DNA of 64,000 nt, taken from assembly GCA_002319075.1 (NCBI GenBank), contig NVQB01000001.1:5208001-5272000 (forward strand), written 5' to 3'. This document shows positions 29,013-36,208 of this stretch, piece after piece (the stretch's first letter is position 1; each line of letters starts with the position of its first letter). The notes below the pieces were generated by a model. The model was not told the DNA's origin and did no database searches. It worked only from the letters and a program-made list of their open reading frames with translations. The position numbers and the translations under genes were made by a program. This DNA is from Sphingobacteriaceae bacterium. Its GTDB lineage: Bacteria > Bacteroidota > Bacteroidia > B-17B0 > Aurantibacillaceae.

Positions 29013-30170
29013 ATGTTTTCTAAAAATCTTACAGACCATTTCAATTCCCTTGAAACGCCTTTTTACTATTACGATACAGACTTACTTCAAAAGACACTGG
29101 AAGCCATAAAAAAGGCTGCGCCTGAAGACTATCATATTCACTACGCGCTAAAGGCTAATGCTCACCCCACACTTCTAGAACCTATCAGAAATGCAGGTTT
29201 CGGTGCTGATTGTGTAAGTGGCAATGAAGTAAAACGGGCTATTGAATCAGGATTTGATCCTAAAAAAATTGTCTTTGCCGGTGTTGGAAAAAGTGACAAG
29301 GAAATAAATTATGCGCTCGATCATGCTATCTATTGTTTTAATGTGGAGAGTGTGCACGAACTACAGATTTTAAACGAGCTTTCGAAAAAGAAAAATGTAA
29401 AAGCCAATATCGCGCTACGCATTAACCCCAATGTAGATGCCCATACACATAAGTATATCACTACCGGATTAGAAGAAAATAAATTTGGCATTAATCCTTA
29501 CGAATTTGAATCGGTTTTAGCTGAGCTTAAAAAACTGGAGAACATTCATTTTATTGGGCTGCATTTTCACATTGGTTCACAGATCCAGGATATGACACCG
29601 TTTAAAAATCTTTGCCTTCGCGTAAATGAAATAAATAAATGGTTTATCCAGAAAGGATTTTCGCCGGCGATTATTAATTTGGGTGGCGGGCTTGGAATAA
29701 ATTACCAGGAACCTGAAACACATGCCATCGTTGACTTTAACACTTATTTCAGCGTATTCAAGCAATTTCTTGAATTACTCCCACATCAAGAAATACATTT
29801 TGAGTTAGGCCGTTGCATTATAGCTCAGTGTGGAAGTTTGATCAGCCGTGTGCTCTATATTAAAAATGGCATCAATACAAATTTTGCAATTTTAGATGCC
29901 GGCATGACGGAATTAATTCGTCCTGCCCTCTACCAGGCTTATCACAAAATTGAAAATATAAGTAAAGCGAATTCTGCTGCTGATAAAAAATACGACGTAG
30001 TGGGTCCTATTTGCGAAAGCAGTGATTGTTTTGGAAAAGCAGTTGTTTTACCGGAAACGCAACGTGGCGATTTAATAGCTATAAGAAGTGCCGGGGCGTA
30101 CGGAGAAGTAATGAGTAATCATTACAACCTCAGAGATGCGGTACAATCCTTTTTTGATACAGCTAGTTAA
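29013..30170 (+). CDS. lysA: Diaminopimelate decarboxylase
   Basis: A 385-residue PLP enzyme of fold type III that converts meso-diaminopimelate to lysine. It shows the PLP lysine in HYALKANAHP, the GADCVSGNEV segment, the GLHFHIGSQI motif, NLGGGLGINY, then PICESSDCFGK and RSAGAYGEVMSNHYN. It is second in the operon with aspartate kinase (10-nt gap), so the first and last steps of lysine synthesis are co-expressed. Its end overlaps the convergent potassium channel gene by 8 nt. Confidence 0.95.
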   Translation: MFSKNLTDHFNSLETPFYYYDTDLLQKTLEAIKKAAPEDYHIHYALKANAHPTLLEPIRNAGFGADCVSGNEVKRAIESGFDPKKIVFAGVGKSDKEINYALDHAIYCFNVESVHELQILNELSKKKNVKANIALRINPNVDAHTHKYITTGLEENKFGINPYEFESVLAELKKLENIHFIGLHFHIGSQIQDMTPFKNLCLRVNEINKWFIQKGFSPAIINLGGGLGINYQEPETHAIVDFNTYFSVFKQFLELLPHQEIHFELGRCIIAQCGSLISRVLYIKNGINTNFAILDAGMTELIRPALYQAYHKIENISKANSAADKKYDVVGPICESSDCFGKAVVLPETQRGDLIAIRSAGAYGEVMSNHYNLRDAVQSFFDTAS

Positions 30171-31107
30171 GAATATCGAATAGATGAATGTCTGTTACTG
30201 AAACTTTTAATGCACCTCTTTTTGTAACTTCTGGAGTTAAGGGCTTAAATTTTGCGTTTTCCACAAGGTCTTGAACTTTGTAAGAATTTCTCGAATTTAC
30301 AGTTTGAGAATAGGTATCGTTAATGGCTTTTATCAGAATAATAAACTCAGCATCTCTTGTTTCCAAATCCATTTTAGACAGTCCGTAAAGCGGACTGTCT
30401 TCAGTTATATGATGCACTATGGTCCAACTCATAGCCATAAAATTTACACGACTGATCTCAAGTTTTAGAGCCACGAATTCTCTTTTATTCAGTTCAGGGT
30501 GAATGTATGTAAAGGTTATAGCTGCTTCTGTTTCGATGAGTTCATATTGTTTTTTATTAGTGATTCGCAGCATTAATGCGGTGGAATCTTTATAGGGGGA
30601 TATTAAAACATTCTTGCTGTACAAAACATGTGCTTTAGGCCTGGAAAATCTTCCATAAAGCACGCCGGTGGCAAGGGCGAAACTAAGTAACCCTAGCAAA
30701 GACTCTACCGCCGCTGCAATACTGGCTCCGTTACCAATTGGATAAATGTGGCCGTAGCCCAGTGTGGTAATAGTTTGCGCACTAAAGAAAAACAGTCCCA
30801 TAAATTTTTGAAACTCCGAGGCTGCGTCAACGTCAAGTCCACCAAAGTGGGAGGCTCCTACCCAATAATAAATGCCTGCAAAAATTAAGTTGATTACAAT
30901 GTAACTCGATATGATAATCATGATCAATTTAAACAACGATGCAGAGATCAACGAATGGTAAATATCTGTATTGTTGATCCAGCCAAGGCCAATCCTTTTT
31001 ACATTCACGCCTCCATCTTTATTCAGGAAACGAACGGGTTTTTTATAATTTTTTGTCCCAAAGCCAAGTTCTAACTCGTCTTTAGGTTTATTTTTTAAAA
31101 TTGCCAT
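30163..31107 (-). CDS. Inward-rectifier (KirBac-type) potassium channel
   Basis: A 314-residue channel with two membrane helices (about 57-80 and 128-152), a pore helix and the selectivity filter TLGYG at 115-119 in the segment SAQTITTLGYGHIYP. After the inner helix comes RFSRPKAHVLYS, and the C-terminal half (160-300) is the beta-rich cytoplasmic Kir domain (RITNKKQYELIETEAAITF, then SWTIVHHITEDSPLYG). The family canonical TVGYG is varied to TLGYG. It forms a tail-to-tail overlap of 8 nt with lysA. Its physiological trigger is unknown. Confidence 0.92.
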   Translation of the reverse strand: MAILKNKPKDELELGFGTKNYKKPVRFLNKDGGVNVKRIGLGWINNTDIYHSLISASLFKLIMIIISSYIVINLIFAGIYYWVGASHFGGLDVDAASEFQKFMGLFFFSAQTITTLGYGHIYPIGNGASIAAAVESLLGLLSFALATGVLYGRFSRPKAHVLYSKNVLISPYKDSTALMLRITNKKQYELIETEAAITFTYIHPELNKREFVALKLEISRVNFMAMSWTIVHHITEDSPLYGLSKMDLETRDAEFIILIKAINDTYSQTVNSRNSYKVQDLVENAKFKPLTPEVTKRGALKVSVTDIHLFDILN

Positions 31108-32663: not shown

Positions 32664-32699
32664 AAAAAAAAATCCCTCCTGCAACTAATCAGAAGGGAT
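32664..32699 (-). terminator. Terminator after the 32793-33932 lipoprotein gene
   Basis: 10-bp stem with one wobble pair (ATCCCTCCTG at 32672-32681 with CAGAAGGGAT at 32690-32699) and a U-run on the minus strand. The rest of 32547-32792 shows no gene. Confidence 0.7.
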
Positions 32700-32792: not shown

Positions 32793-33932
32793 TTATTTGT
32801 AGGAAACAGCAACTTTTGCGTTACCATCTTTAAGGTTAATTTCTGTTGTACCATTTTTTACAATACAATTAAACTTCACTTTTAAACTTTTGGTGTGCTC
32901 ACCCTTCTCATTCAGGTTGTATTCTGCAACTTCTGTTATATCGAAGTTGCTTGACTGGGGTTGAATGAGGTTTTTAGAACTATAAACTTTACCGTTTGGA
33001 TCAGTCACTAAAATTGTAACAGAAGATGGTATACGGGTATTTATTATAGGAGAAAATTCAGTTCGGAAATTTGCATCACAAACAGAACCATTTGTAGCAT
33101 GAATCTGGTAACGGTATATGCAGGAATCACCTGTAGATAAATCTGTAAGATTTAGTGTTACAAGATTAGTAGTATTAAATACAAATAATTTTTCTGGAGA
33201 GGGTCTTGTATCTATTCCGCCATTTGAGAAACTCCATGTTGACTGAAGATTTTTAAACATCGCATCTACCGGTAGATAAAAAAACTGGTATTTAAATTCG
33301 TTTGAACTGATTTTTGTTGCTGTTATACCGGTTTGAAGTTTGTTACCTATTCTGAAAACATTCGTTAAACTCTGAGTGCAGGTACCACTAGCATCATCAT
33401 AATTTAGAGTTACCGAATAGGTTTTACCAACATCTAATGTTGCCGAATAAGTAGCATGTAGGGTTCCACTGCCAATGCGCGTTGTAGTGTTAGTTCCATC
33501 TGTACAGGACCATTTATATGCAGCTGAACTATTTATTTTAGCTGCTTTAAATGTTAGAACCTGAGTGGTACCATCAATAATTAAATCATTATACAGAAGT
33601 TTTCCCTTTACCAAAGTGCTATCCACTTTCATTGGATTATACACTGTAGTTTCTTGTGTTTCGTTAAAAAGAATGGTGACCTGGTAACCAGAACTATTTT
33701 GTCTGGCGAGGTTTGCCTTGTAAACATACACATGATCTGAATCCTGAAAATAGCTGGAGGTATTCATATAATAGTCGTCATCGCCTGCTGCTATATTAAA
33801 AGGCTGACCGTCCATTGTACAGTTCACGTAAAAATGCGGATCGTTTATTTCAGGTTCCGGCAAATCCTTTTGTTTTTTGCAGGAAGCAACAAACAAAAGA
33901 AAAAGTACCGAAAGGCTAATAATTTTTTTCAT
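32793..33932 (-). CDS. Predicted lipoprotein with Ig/PKD-like regions, downstream of the sigma operon
   Basis: A 379-residue lipoprotein (SVLFLLFVASCKKQK) from the ATG at 33932. An earlier in-frame start at 33956 would overlap the upstream gene. The N-terminal part (FYVNCTMDGQPFNI) and a middle region with KWSCTDGTNTT and HATYSATLDVGKTYSVTLNY look like beta-sandwich/PKD-type domains. It begins 4 nt after the stop of the anti-sigma/barrel gene, so it is probably the third gene of a sigma factor operon. It may be a surface target or part of a sensing complex; that is inference. Confidence 0.75.
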   Translation of the reverse strand: MKKIISLSVLFLLFVASCKKQKDLPEPEINDPHFYVNCTMDGQPFNIAAGDDDYYMNTSSYFQDSDHVYVYKANLARQNSSGYQVTILFNETQETTVYNPMKVDSTLVKGKLLYNDLIIDGTTQVLTFKAAKINSSAAYKWSCTDGTNTTTRIGSGTLHATYSATLDVGKTYSVTLNYDDASGTCTQSLTNVFRIGNKLQTGITATKISSNEFKYQFFYLPVDAMFKNLQSTWSFSNGGIDTRPSPEKLFVFNTTNLVTLNLTDLSTGDSCIYRYQIHATNGSVCDANFRTEFSPIINTRIPSSVTILVTDPNGKVYSSKNLIQPQSSNFDITEVAEYNLNEKGEHTKSLKVKFNCIVKNGTTEINLKDGNAKVAVSYK

Positions 33933-33936
33933 CTTT

Positions 33937-35481
33937 TTATTTATCAAAAATCGCATAAGTTAAGCCAACACGAATGCCCATGGGGACTTCGCTTGTTTTA
34001 ACCTGATCAGTATTCTTAAACATATCGCTTACCCCGTAGTTAAATTCCAGATTTAAACCAACCCGTTTTACTAACTGGGTTTTGTAATTGGCAGTTAACA
34101 TGATGTTCATTGTGTTTGTACCTTTATAGATCCCTTTGGTTTGTGTATCTGAAGGCCCAACAGTTCTAACCTCATTATCTAAAGTATAATATTTAGAAAC
34201 AGTATTGGTTGCTCCGATAAGGTAAGCGGCATTCACACCAAGGCCTATACTGTTTTTACGATTGATCATGTAATTAAATTTCAAAGGAACGGCTAAATAA
34301 TATAATTCGTTACTGGTAACACGTGTATAAATAAGGTTAGAACCGAAACCATATTCTTTAGCGGCTACTAAATAAAACGGTTGTTTAATATTAGCAATAT
34401 TGTAGGCTTGCAGACCAATACTCACATTAAATTTATTCGACAAATAACGTCCGTAATTAAGTCCTGCATACCAGTTCATTCCATCTCCATCCTTACCTTT
34501 TGCAGCGTTCCAGCCCAAAAGATAATTTGCTCCGAATTCAATATCCAGGTAATGGGTTTTAGCATTTTTCTTTTTGTAGTACTCATCATCATATCTGTTA
34601 AGATAGACAAAGGGGCCGGAATTTATCTCCTGGTCACTCACTTCAAAAGGCAGAGTTGAATATACCGCACTCAGCTGATCTGCATTCACCACTTGATTTA
34701 AGTCAGAAGCTGAAGGGGCTGCGGAAGCTGGTATAACATAGGAGTTATCTGCTTCGGATCTGCTATTCTCAGAAGTAATTTCTGGGAGCTCAGTGCTGGC
34801 AGATTTATTCGAAGCTTCAAAATTAGTAGCTTCCTTCGCATTGGCGGGTTCAACAGCCATTATATTTTCAGAACGTTCAGCTAATTTTTCTTGTCTTTCA
34901 CCATTTTGATTCTCTGCTTTTGATTTTTCTTCTTTAGAAGTAGTTGTAGAGAGAGGTAAATTACTTTCTTTTATTTTTAAAGCAGTCTCTTGATTTGTAG
35001 AAGTGTTCTTTTCTTTCGAAATAGCAGCCATGTGGGTCTTTTCAGCAGCACTTTTCACTACAACCGCTTTAGTTATCTCGCTGGTATTTTGTGAGGCGTT
35101 ATTGGCTATTGTATTAGTAGATTCATCATTTTGTTTTTTATCGTCAAGTGAAGTCGTCTTTAGTTTTGAAGAACTTACGGTGATTTTATTTTCGTTGTTA
35201 CTTGTAGCGATATCTGCTTTTGCAACAACCGCAAGTTCTTTTGCGGTTTGAGTAGTTCCTTTAACGGAGTCGAAATAATTATAGGTCATAAGACCGGCTG
35301 TACCTATAGCAAGCACCAACACTACAGGAAGGTATAACTGTTTTATTTTTAAAGCACGGGTGGTATTACGTTCTGCATCTAACAAAGCACTGGTTTTTTC
35401 CCAATTGCTCTCATCAAACGGGTAACTCTCCCCTTCCGCCTTTCGTCTAATTATACTATCAAATTCTTCTTCGAAACTCAT
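33937..35481 (-). CDS. Anti-sigma-like protein joined to a C-terminal outer-membrane beta-barrel
   Basis: A 514-residue protein. Residues 1-46 are a short acidic cytoplasmic segment (EEEFDSIIRRKAEGESYPFDE) of the kind found in Bacteroidota anti-sigma proteins. Residues 50-66 form a single transmembrane helix (LPVVLVLAIGTAGLM). Residues 67-300 are a Ser/Thr/Lys/Glu/Asn-rich disordered linker. Residues 311-514 look like an outer-membrane barrel (LDIEFGANYLLGW, then KFNVSIGLQAYNI, LAVPLKFNYMINRKNSIGLG and a GIRVGLTYAIF end). It begins 5 nt after the sigma factor gene. A protein with this order would bridge both membranes. The barrel assignment is by strand pattern, not by search. Confidence 0.75.
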   Translation of the reverse strand: MSFEEEFDSIIRRKAEGESYPFDESNWEKTSALLDAERNTTRALKIKQLYLPVVLVLAIGTAGLMTYNYFDSVKGTTQTAKELAVVAKADIATSNNENKITVSSSKLKTTSLDDKKQNDESTNTIANNASQNTSEITKAVVVKSAAEKTHMAAISKEKNTSTNQETALKIKESNLPLSTTTSKEEKSKAENQNGERQEKLAERSENIMAVEPANAKEATNFEASNKSASTELPEITSENSRSEADNSYVIPASAAPSASDLNQVVNADQLSAVYSTLPFEVSDQEINSGPFVYLNRYDDEYYKKKNAKTHYLDIEFGANYLLGWNAAKGKDGDGMNWYAGLNYGRYLSNKFNVSIGLQAYNIANIKQPFYLVAAKEYGFGSNLIYTRVTSNELYYLAVPLKFNYMINRKNSIGLGVNAAYLIGATNTVSKYYTLDNEVRTVGPSDTQTKGIYKGTNTMNIMLTANYKTQLVKRVGLNLEFNYGVSDMFKNTDQVKTSEVPMGIRVGLTYAIFDK

Positions 35482-35486
35482 CTTTC

Positions 35487-36038
35487 TTATATTCTGGTTA
35501 ATACACTATTTTCTATATATTCTTTTAATTTTTGTCGGGCGGCATTCAAATGCCATTTAGATGTACCCACACTAATACTCAATAACTCACCAATCTCCTT
35601 GTGCGAATATCCGTCGATGGCAAAAAGGTTAAACACTTTTTTTGTTGCTTCCGGTAATAAATTGATTTGCGTGAGAAGTTGATTATAGTTGATACGGCTC
35701 AGAGCTTCATTAACATCTGAAAAGTCGGCACTGTCATAATATTCTTCCACGTAGGTAACTTTCTCTCTCTCCCTTTTATTTTTGCGGTACTCATCAATTA
35801 AAGTGTTTACCATAACCCTGCGAATCCAGGCCTTAAAAGGAATCTCGGGCTTGTAGGTGCCCAAATTTTTTAAAATTTTGAGGAAACCCATGTTTAATGA
35901 TTCTGAAGCGGTATCCTTATCTTTAGAATAACGCATACAAATACTCATTAAATAACTATAGGTCACTTTATACAATTCATACTCAGCCTTGCGGTCCTGC
36001 TTAATGCACAATGCAATCAGTTGAGGCTGAATATTCAT
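35487..36038 (-). CDS. ECF-type sigma-70 factor
   Basis: A 183-residue extracytoplasmic-function sigma factor. The sigma-2 region has YSYLMSICMRYSKDKDTASE and the FKAWIRRVMVNTLIDEYRK segment that binds core enzyme and the -10 element. The sigma-4 region at about 120-175 has LPEATKKVFNLFAIDGYSHKEIG, with the helix-turn-helix SVGTSKWHLNAARQKL. It is the first gene of an operon with an anti-sigma/barrel protein and a lipoprotein. It is probably released by a signal sensed through that barrel protein. Confidence 0.92.
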   Translation of the reverse strand: MNIQPQLIALCIKQDRKAEYELYKVTYSYLMSICMRYSKDKDTASESLNMGFLKILKNLGTYKPEIPFKAWIRRVMVNTLIDEYRKNKREREKVTYVEEYYDSADFSDVNEALSRINYNQLLTQINLLPEATKKVFNLFAIDGYSHKEIGELLSISVGTSKWHLNAARQKLKEYIENSVLTRI

Positions 36039-36208
36039 AATTAATAACGGTCTTAATAACTTATACGAATAAAGATAAGCAAAAGTTGGGTAAATAAATA
36101 TATCTACCTTGCTGAAATTCAGTTTTTTAACTAAATCTGTTTAATCTTCAGAAATTTAAAGGCAAAGAAAGGTCAACAGAAAATGCGTAAACTTTATTAT
36201 AGAATTAA

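Follow-up and report, generated by a model that had tools for sequence, protein, structure and literature searches.

Members of the Dma family, described as occurring solely in Bacteroidota, combine an anti-sigma domain, a transmembrane (TM) helix, a disordered tether and a β-barrel in a single chain, and are encoded beside ECF21 sigma factors (PMC13088901). In Bacteroides thetaiotaomicron Dma1 and Dma2 pair with the sigma factors Das1 and Das2 and represent a working class of anti-sigma factor; Dma2 lies in a three-gene operon, and its authors hypothesise that it senses surface glycans (PMC13088901). A similar layout was reported for Phocaeicola vulgatus, where the anti-sigma factor M0N98_03760 is unusually large and, by prediction, crosses the periplasm to end in a C-terminal outer-membrane barrel. 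Loss of this protein frees its sigma factor, the gene of which is induced by an envelope-acting toxin, and the response to the toxin overlaps the response to an inhibitor of BamA (PMC9308784). The P. vulgatus pair, M0N98_03761/03760, was likened in the same report to EcfO/Reo of B. fragilis (PMC9308784). The sequence-only reading from which this analysis started had set the locus described here against classical systems, in which the anti-sigma protein and the outer-membrane sensor are separate proteins, a contrast that overlooks the published fused class (PMC13088901, PMC9308784).

The locus lies in a window (the whole stretch of DNA analysed) of 64,000 nucleotides. On the minus strand a gene for a 183-residue ECF sigma factor (35487..36038), containing sigma regions 2 and 4 (Pfam Sigma70_r2 and r4_2, NCBIfam), is followed after 5 nt by the gene for a 514-residue protein (33937..35481), confirming the gene order first proposed. 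The third gene on this strand (32793..33932) encodes a lipoprotein of 379 residues, defined by family census and alignment, in which the lipobox cysteine, Cys18, precedes two lysines. Upstream of the sigma gene an ECF-type promoter-like element, CCAAC-N17-CGTA, occupies 36064..36089 of the same strand (CCAACTTTTGCTTATCTTTATTCGTA) and ends ∼26 nt before the sigma start. At the other end of the three-gene run a hairpin scan located a terminator-like hairpin followed by T8 (32672..32699, minus strand), a site that is weak on its own evidence because the region contains two such sites where shuffled sequence would give 2.3. The explanation that best accounts for the locus as a whole, and which we consider probable, is a three-gene operon for sigma factor, anti-sigma/barrel protein and lipoprotein, forming a self-contained member of the Dma class. 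Farther along, 2.8 kb past the anti-sigma gene, the window encodes a protein that by eye resembles a potassium channel (30163-31107); related proteins of 312-329 residues lie ∼2.3 kb beyond that gene in loci L004, L005, L006 and L243.

The 514-residue protein is assigned to the Dma class on homology and layout, with the B. thetaiotaomicron proteins compared through their published description. It resembles Dma1 and Dma2 in its adjoining ECF sigma factor, short N-terminal domain, one TM helix, long disordered tether and C-terminal barrel. In contrast, the third gene at the Dma2 locus encodes a DUF4943 protein, whereas that of the window encodes a lipoprotein whose family includes members with PKD domains. 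The window module also occurs in another lineage (its relatives are labelled Bacteroidia, Bacteroidetes or Sphingobacteriaceae), and its clade has a promoter-like element, CCAAC-N17-CGTA, of its own. Dma1 is said to have been described in a PNAS paper of 2024.

The domain order of the 514-residue protein, derived from its ORF, a TM scan, alignment, AlphaFold, Foldseek and VIA, is predicted to be a cytoplasmic segment (residues 1-45), a TM helix (∼46-64), a disordered region (73-305) and an eight-stranded barrel (310-513). The single TM helix called by the sequence-only reading was recovered, although its position shifts from 50-66 to the best 19-residue window, 46-64. An AlphaFold model built on seven sequences contains helices at 3-15 and 24-72, with pLDDT values of ∼59-69 within the first 40 residues, and falls below 50 over residues 57-305, in agreement with the ∼235 disordered residues expected at the outset. 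The C-terminal region, initially described as barrel-like, is modelled over residues 310-513 as an eight-stranded barrel of the OmpA/NspA type, with pLDDT values of 73-95 for most ten-residue blocks and 61 for one. This domain (residues 310-514; 33940..34554, minus strand) retrieved the OmpA barrel as the first-ranked Foldseek match (E 3.9e-8), while VIA aligned 154 residues with NspA (Z 17.4, rmsd 3.0) and gave Z ∼16 for OmpA and OprF. The likeness to these barrels is one of fold: identity is ∼10%, and the barrel in the window differs from them in following a tether and an inner-membrane anchor along the chain. Hydropathy alternates along the strands of the family alignment (2.11 vs 1.04 ± 0.27), a value reached by none of 2000 shuffles. 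The Pfam family OMP_b-brl_2 scores 22.7 bits against the window protein, below its 27-bit cut-off, and is above the cut-off in the distant members of loci L118 and L119. Tether and strand statistics were drawn from 36 uncut members with barrel E values up to 1e-20, among which the tether measures 129-280 residues (median 218). Together the alignments and the model suggest that one polypeptide is laid out to run from the cytoplasm through the inner membrane and periplasm to a barrel in the outer membrane.

The putative anti-sigma domain (residues 1-45; 35347..35481, minus strand) was delimited by alignments and a profile-profile match. The acidic 46-residue start proposed earlier holds as a cytoplasmic start, at 45 residues, but its acidity is only mild, with 11 acidic and 7 basic residues; the segment contains no Cys or His. 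Trp27 is invariant in an alignment of 34 sequences, and Phe7, Phe22, Trp27 and Asp35 are all conserved in an alignment of 14. In profile-profile comparison the window-type domain matched the corresponding Bacteroidales domains with P 95% (E 3.8e-8), compared with P ≤3.7% for 20 column-shuffled controls and P 0.1% for seven usable controls from the control family f19. The domains of four NigD-linked loci matched the Bacteroidales profile with P 96%, while their direct match to the window-type domain is weak (P 49%, E 1.7e-4). These comparisons indicate homology between the short cytoplasmic domain and its counterparts in Bacteroidales relatives, and also the four NigD-linked domains, to which the relation is clear through intermediates and weak in direct comparison. 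EcfO/Reo and M0N98_03761/03760 share with the window system an unusually large anti-sigma protein, predicted to span the periplasm and to end in an outer-membrane barrel (PMC9308784); they differ in that their linked lipoproteins are NigD genes, and the kinship of the window domain to theirs is clear only through intermediates.

The criterion for a class I domain (ASDI) is a length of at least 50 residues, with HxxxCxxC in the zinc type, and the window protein falls outside it because ∼45 residues, without Cys or His, precede the TM helix. ASDIs average ∼101 residues (PMC7406223). Class II, CnrY-type domains, in which two helices wrap sigma regions 2 and 4, are likewise short and cytoplasmic and are carried on one TM helix (PMC4598750, PMC7406223); in the window domain two helices are predicted, with pLDDT values of only 59-69. 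A PDB sequence search with the 45-residue profile returned eight matches, all with E 0.62 or worse and none beyond chance, and the whole-protein profile returned only two chance matches (E ∼0.03). To our knowledge, CnrY carries no fused barrel.

The genome that contains the window encodes two more copies of the 514-residue protein (26% and 25% identity), each beside its own sigma factor. Matches to the protein occur in 28 of the 61 genomes of the family and, at E 0.001 with a profile, in 61 of the 87 genomes of the order, some by one end only. A search of the phylum, in which at most three candidates were scored per genome, yielded matches at E 1e-6 or better in at least 46 of 392 genomes, mostly by one end outside the window's own genome. 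The pairing first seen in the window recurs: a sigma ORF adjoins the protein in 36 of 38 loci. Of the remaining two, L010 is a weak match in which the protein is missing, and L035 lies at a contig end. Window-type loci were picked by their match to the 514-residue protein, so that their uniformity partly reflects selection. The Bacteroidales-like set was picked by the sigma factor, mostly as top matches, and in that order 73 of 79 genomes matched the sigma profile at E 1e-16. Three loci (L006, L011 and L242) are copies of one place, and two weak-match loci (L080 and L084) are without a sigma/protein pair.

The neighbours of these sigma factors were compared after 203 sigma-neighbour pairs had been cut to 146 on identity of the first 120 residues, leaving 129 complete pairs for the TM census. 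Loci L114, L118 and L121 are absent from this census since an overlap filter removed their sigma ORFs, which are nevertheless present (E 3.1e-60, 1.5e-38 and 8.1e-42, respectively). Exactly one TM helix, starting at residues 25-110, was found in 33 of the 36 complete neighbours from the sigma-drawn Bacteroidales-like loci, the exceptions being one protein with a second hydrophobic stretch and those of L220 and L221. The corresponding counts are 34/34 for window-type loci, 34/37 for other loci and 0/22 for the control family f19, and a single-TM neighbour beside this sigma clade is thus more than chance. The control (G110 family, loci L134-L163) had been considered as Bacteroidaceae, an assignment rejected on account of its distant sigma factors and of the genes beside them, which encode either three-TM proteins or short proteins that look zinc-finger-like by eye. 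In a tree of sigma factors, from which proteins shorter than 150 or longer than 260 residues were left out, the window sigma factor belongs to one clade of 118 (support 0.77) together with the sigma factors of NigD-linked loci; the 25 controls fall apart from this clade, in the company of two of the other loci. Four of eight NigD loci carry a sigma factor with a single-TM protein of 409-425 residues, and all four of these proteins pass a barrel cut-off. A search of 61 genomes for the published Dma2 locus through DUF4943 gave none; the sole match was the control, Bacteroides ihuae.

Elsewhere in Bacteroidota the sequences suggest that the same parts occur as one protein, as separate proteins or joined to the sigma factor. 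In six split loci (L116, L124, L127, L128, L129 and L132) the sigma gene is followed by genes for a single-TM protein of 238-273 residues and then for a separate protein of 353-532 residues, which mostly has a signal-peptide-like start and a barrel-like end. In L220 (357-1604) and L221 (2604-3827) the sigma factor is fused to a domain and TM helix (∼410 residues), and a barrel-ended protein is encoded separately downstream; in both loci the anti-sigma domain behind the sigma part was recognised by eye, with HMM support in L221 only (E 2.4e-4). Loci L065-L068 encode forms of 208-217 residues, too short for an eight-stranded barrel of the window type. No description of these splits was found in a search of a limited literature library. 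Two further arrangements were observed. In L077 (519-3369) one sigma gene precedes tandem single-TM proteins of 415 and 459 residues with similar C-terminal ends. Locus L072 (2808-5174) encodes a 788-residue single-TM protein with an FGE-sulfatase domain (E 2e-45), upstream of which a 192-residue ORF matches the sigma profile weakly with filters off (E 2.2e-6).

The two remaining components of the module, the lipoprotein and the promoter-like element, are likewise conserved. A lipoprotein gene of the same family, encoding 367-408 residues, lies directly downstream of the anti-sigma gene in 30 of 30 loci, representing 29 distinct places. The lipobox cysteine is kept in all 30 distinct sequences, which comprise that of the window and 29 from the 30 loci. 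Surface lipoproteins carry an acidic export signal (PMC5080379); in this family the cysteine is followed mostly by lysines in place of such a signal, so that the lipoprotein probably faces the periplasm. Several homologues contain PKD domains (PKD_4 in relatives), of which the window copy retains only a trace.

The element upstream of the sigma gene is highly conserved in window-type loci, where it reads TACCCAACTTTT-N4-TATCTTTATTCGTAT. Of 37 such loci, 29 have CCAAC-N17-CGTA ahead of the sigma gene, compared with a mean of 0.03 and a maximum of 1 in resampled controls, and none of the other groups shows the CGTA form (0/35, 0/48 and 0/26). Among the eight loci without it, four are near contig ends, L075 reads CGTG, and in L008, L009 and L038 the equivalent position, ∼-52 relative to the sigma start, is taken by CCAAC-N17-TGTA or -TGTT. 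L008, which contains a second TGTA site further upstream, and L009 are the paralogous modules of the window's own genome. The paralogue-type loci L259 and L261 likewise show TGTA or TGTT for CGTA at this distance. In the 5.65-Mb genome the strict form of the element has a single match, at 36064-36089 before its own operon. The pattern CCAAC-N17-CGTA occurs at 18 sites, seven of which, including that of the operon, have an ORF start codon within 200 nt downstream; as the reversed control has 50 sites, a wide regulon was rejected. When 40 genomes of the genus were scanned, 102 sites matched the strict form and 53 the control (summed by hand), so that many of these matches are due to chance. These counts are consistent with a sigma factor that may positively autoregulate a small regulon. 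In some genomes of the genus (L246, L249 and L250) a second CCAAC-type element follows the lipoprotein gene, ∼3.1 kb past the sigma promoter, and precedes differing genes.

The operon of sigma factor, Dma-type protein and lipoprotein is likely to work by holding the sigma factor and releasing it upon an outer-membrane trigger. Residues 1-45 would retain the sigma factor at the inner membrane, and the outer membrane would accommodate the C-terminal barrel. A barrel that is lost or fails to assemble, or the status of a ligand or of the lipoprotein at the outer membrane, would expose the tether to periplasmic cleavage, followed by intramembrane cleavage by an RseP-type protease; an RseP-family protease is encoded in the same genome (180.3 bits against a cut-off of 147.55 bits). 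The freed sigma factor would then transcribe its own operon from CCAAC-N17-CGTA, yielding more sensor and lipoprotein, the latter being the main candidate output. Coupling of an outer-membrane event to an ECF sigma factor is shared with FecR/TonB-dependent signalling. That pathway, however, uses separate proteins, whereas the 514-residue protein has no FecR or TonB-receptor domain in Pfam and its barrel has eight strands.

A disordered chain extends by ∼0.36 nm per residue, and the periplasm is roughly 20-25 nm wide. Even the shortest tether, of 129 residues, would thus have a contour of ∼46 nm. As the tether comprises 129-280 residues and is predicted to be disordered in the window protein, tension or direct allostery across the periplasm is unlikely, and with it the proposal in the sequence-only reading that the signal passes straight from the outer membrane to the sigma factor; release by proteolysis or failure of barrel assembly therefore fits better.

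The same length argument lends some credence to a reading, to be held only tentatively, in which the barrel gauges its own assembly. No ligand would be involved; a lag in BAM or chaperones would leave the barrel unfolded, triggering cleavage and release of the sigma factor. The eight-stranded barrel is small and has no plug or TonB-type domain (Pfam, AlphaFold), and the P. vulgatus pair answers an envelope toxin whose effects overlap those of BamA inhibition (PMC9308784), both consistent with such a gauge; the authors of the Dma2 study, however, favour the hypothesis of surface glycan sensing (PMC13088901). It is also conceivable, though unlikely, that the tether is always cut, the barrel and the membrane-anchored anti-sigma portion then acting as two proteins, neither of which would span both membranes. 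The occurrence of the parts as separate genes in other Bacteroidota (the six split loci, L220 and L221) agrees with constitutive processing. Against it, the fused form is kept in window-type loci, albeit picked by the fused protein, with tethers never shorter than 129 residues (n=36), and the exported protein of the split systems is only weakly homologous to the window barrel (P 2.1%, score 23.0 vs ≤15.5 in 10 shuffles). Finally, it is very improbable that the 514-residue protein has no regulatory effect on the sigma factor and only shares its transcript, being a common outer-membrane protein whose signal anchor is unusual, since, although AlphaFold gave no binding model for sigma and anti-sigma as one read-through chain (a poor model, with block pLDDT values of 35-68 for sigma and below 40 for the domain, from locus L002 with TAA read as Gln and an alignment containing two stray residues), the cytoplasmic domain is conserved across the sampled groups, single-TM neighbours accompany the window sigma clade and not the control sigma factors, and repression by the same class has been published (PMC13088901, PMC9308784).

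The fused design itself is already known from the published Dma class. New are its occurrence beyond the Bacteroides studied so far, its combination with a lipoprotein and a promoter-like element in one module, and the variants in which the parts are split or fused. It may be, although we would not yet lean on the idea, that the three genes make up an insulated module which amplifies itself and mainly produces more of its own parts: as the only strict promoter in the genome lies before this operon, the sigma factor would yield further sensor and a dedicated lipoprotein that may act on the barrel or the tether. The paralogous modules L008 and L009 keep CCAAC-N17 at ∼-52 with TGTA or TGTT, so that one cell may maintain several private lines from the outer membrane to a sigma factor in parallel. 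The conserved promoter-like element together with the dedicated lipoprotein renders the mechanism testable. The fused, split and sigma-attached forms across Bacteroidota offer a natural series for learning how such a line transmits. Only 6% of Bacteroidetes ECF sigma factors are reported to have a class I anti-sigma gene nearby, other modes of control being suspected (PMC7406223). The single-TM, often barrel-ended neighbours of this sigma clade, in the window family and the Bacteroidales-like order, would fill part of that anti-sigma gap.
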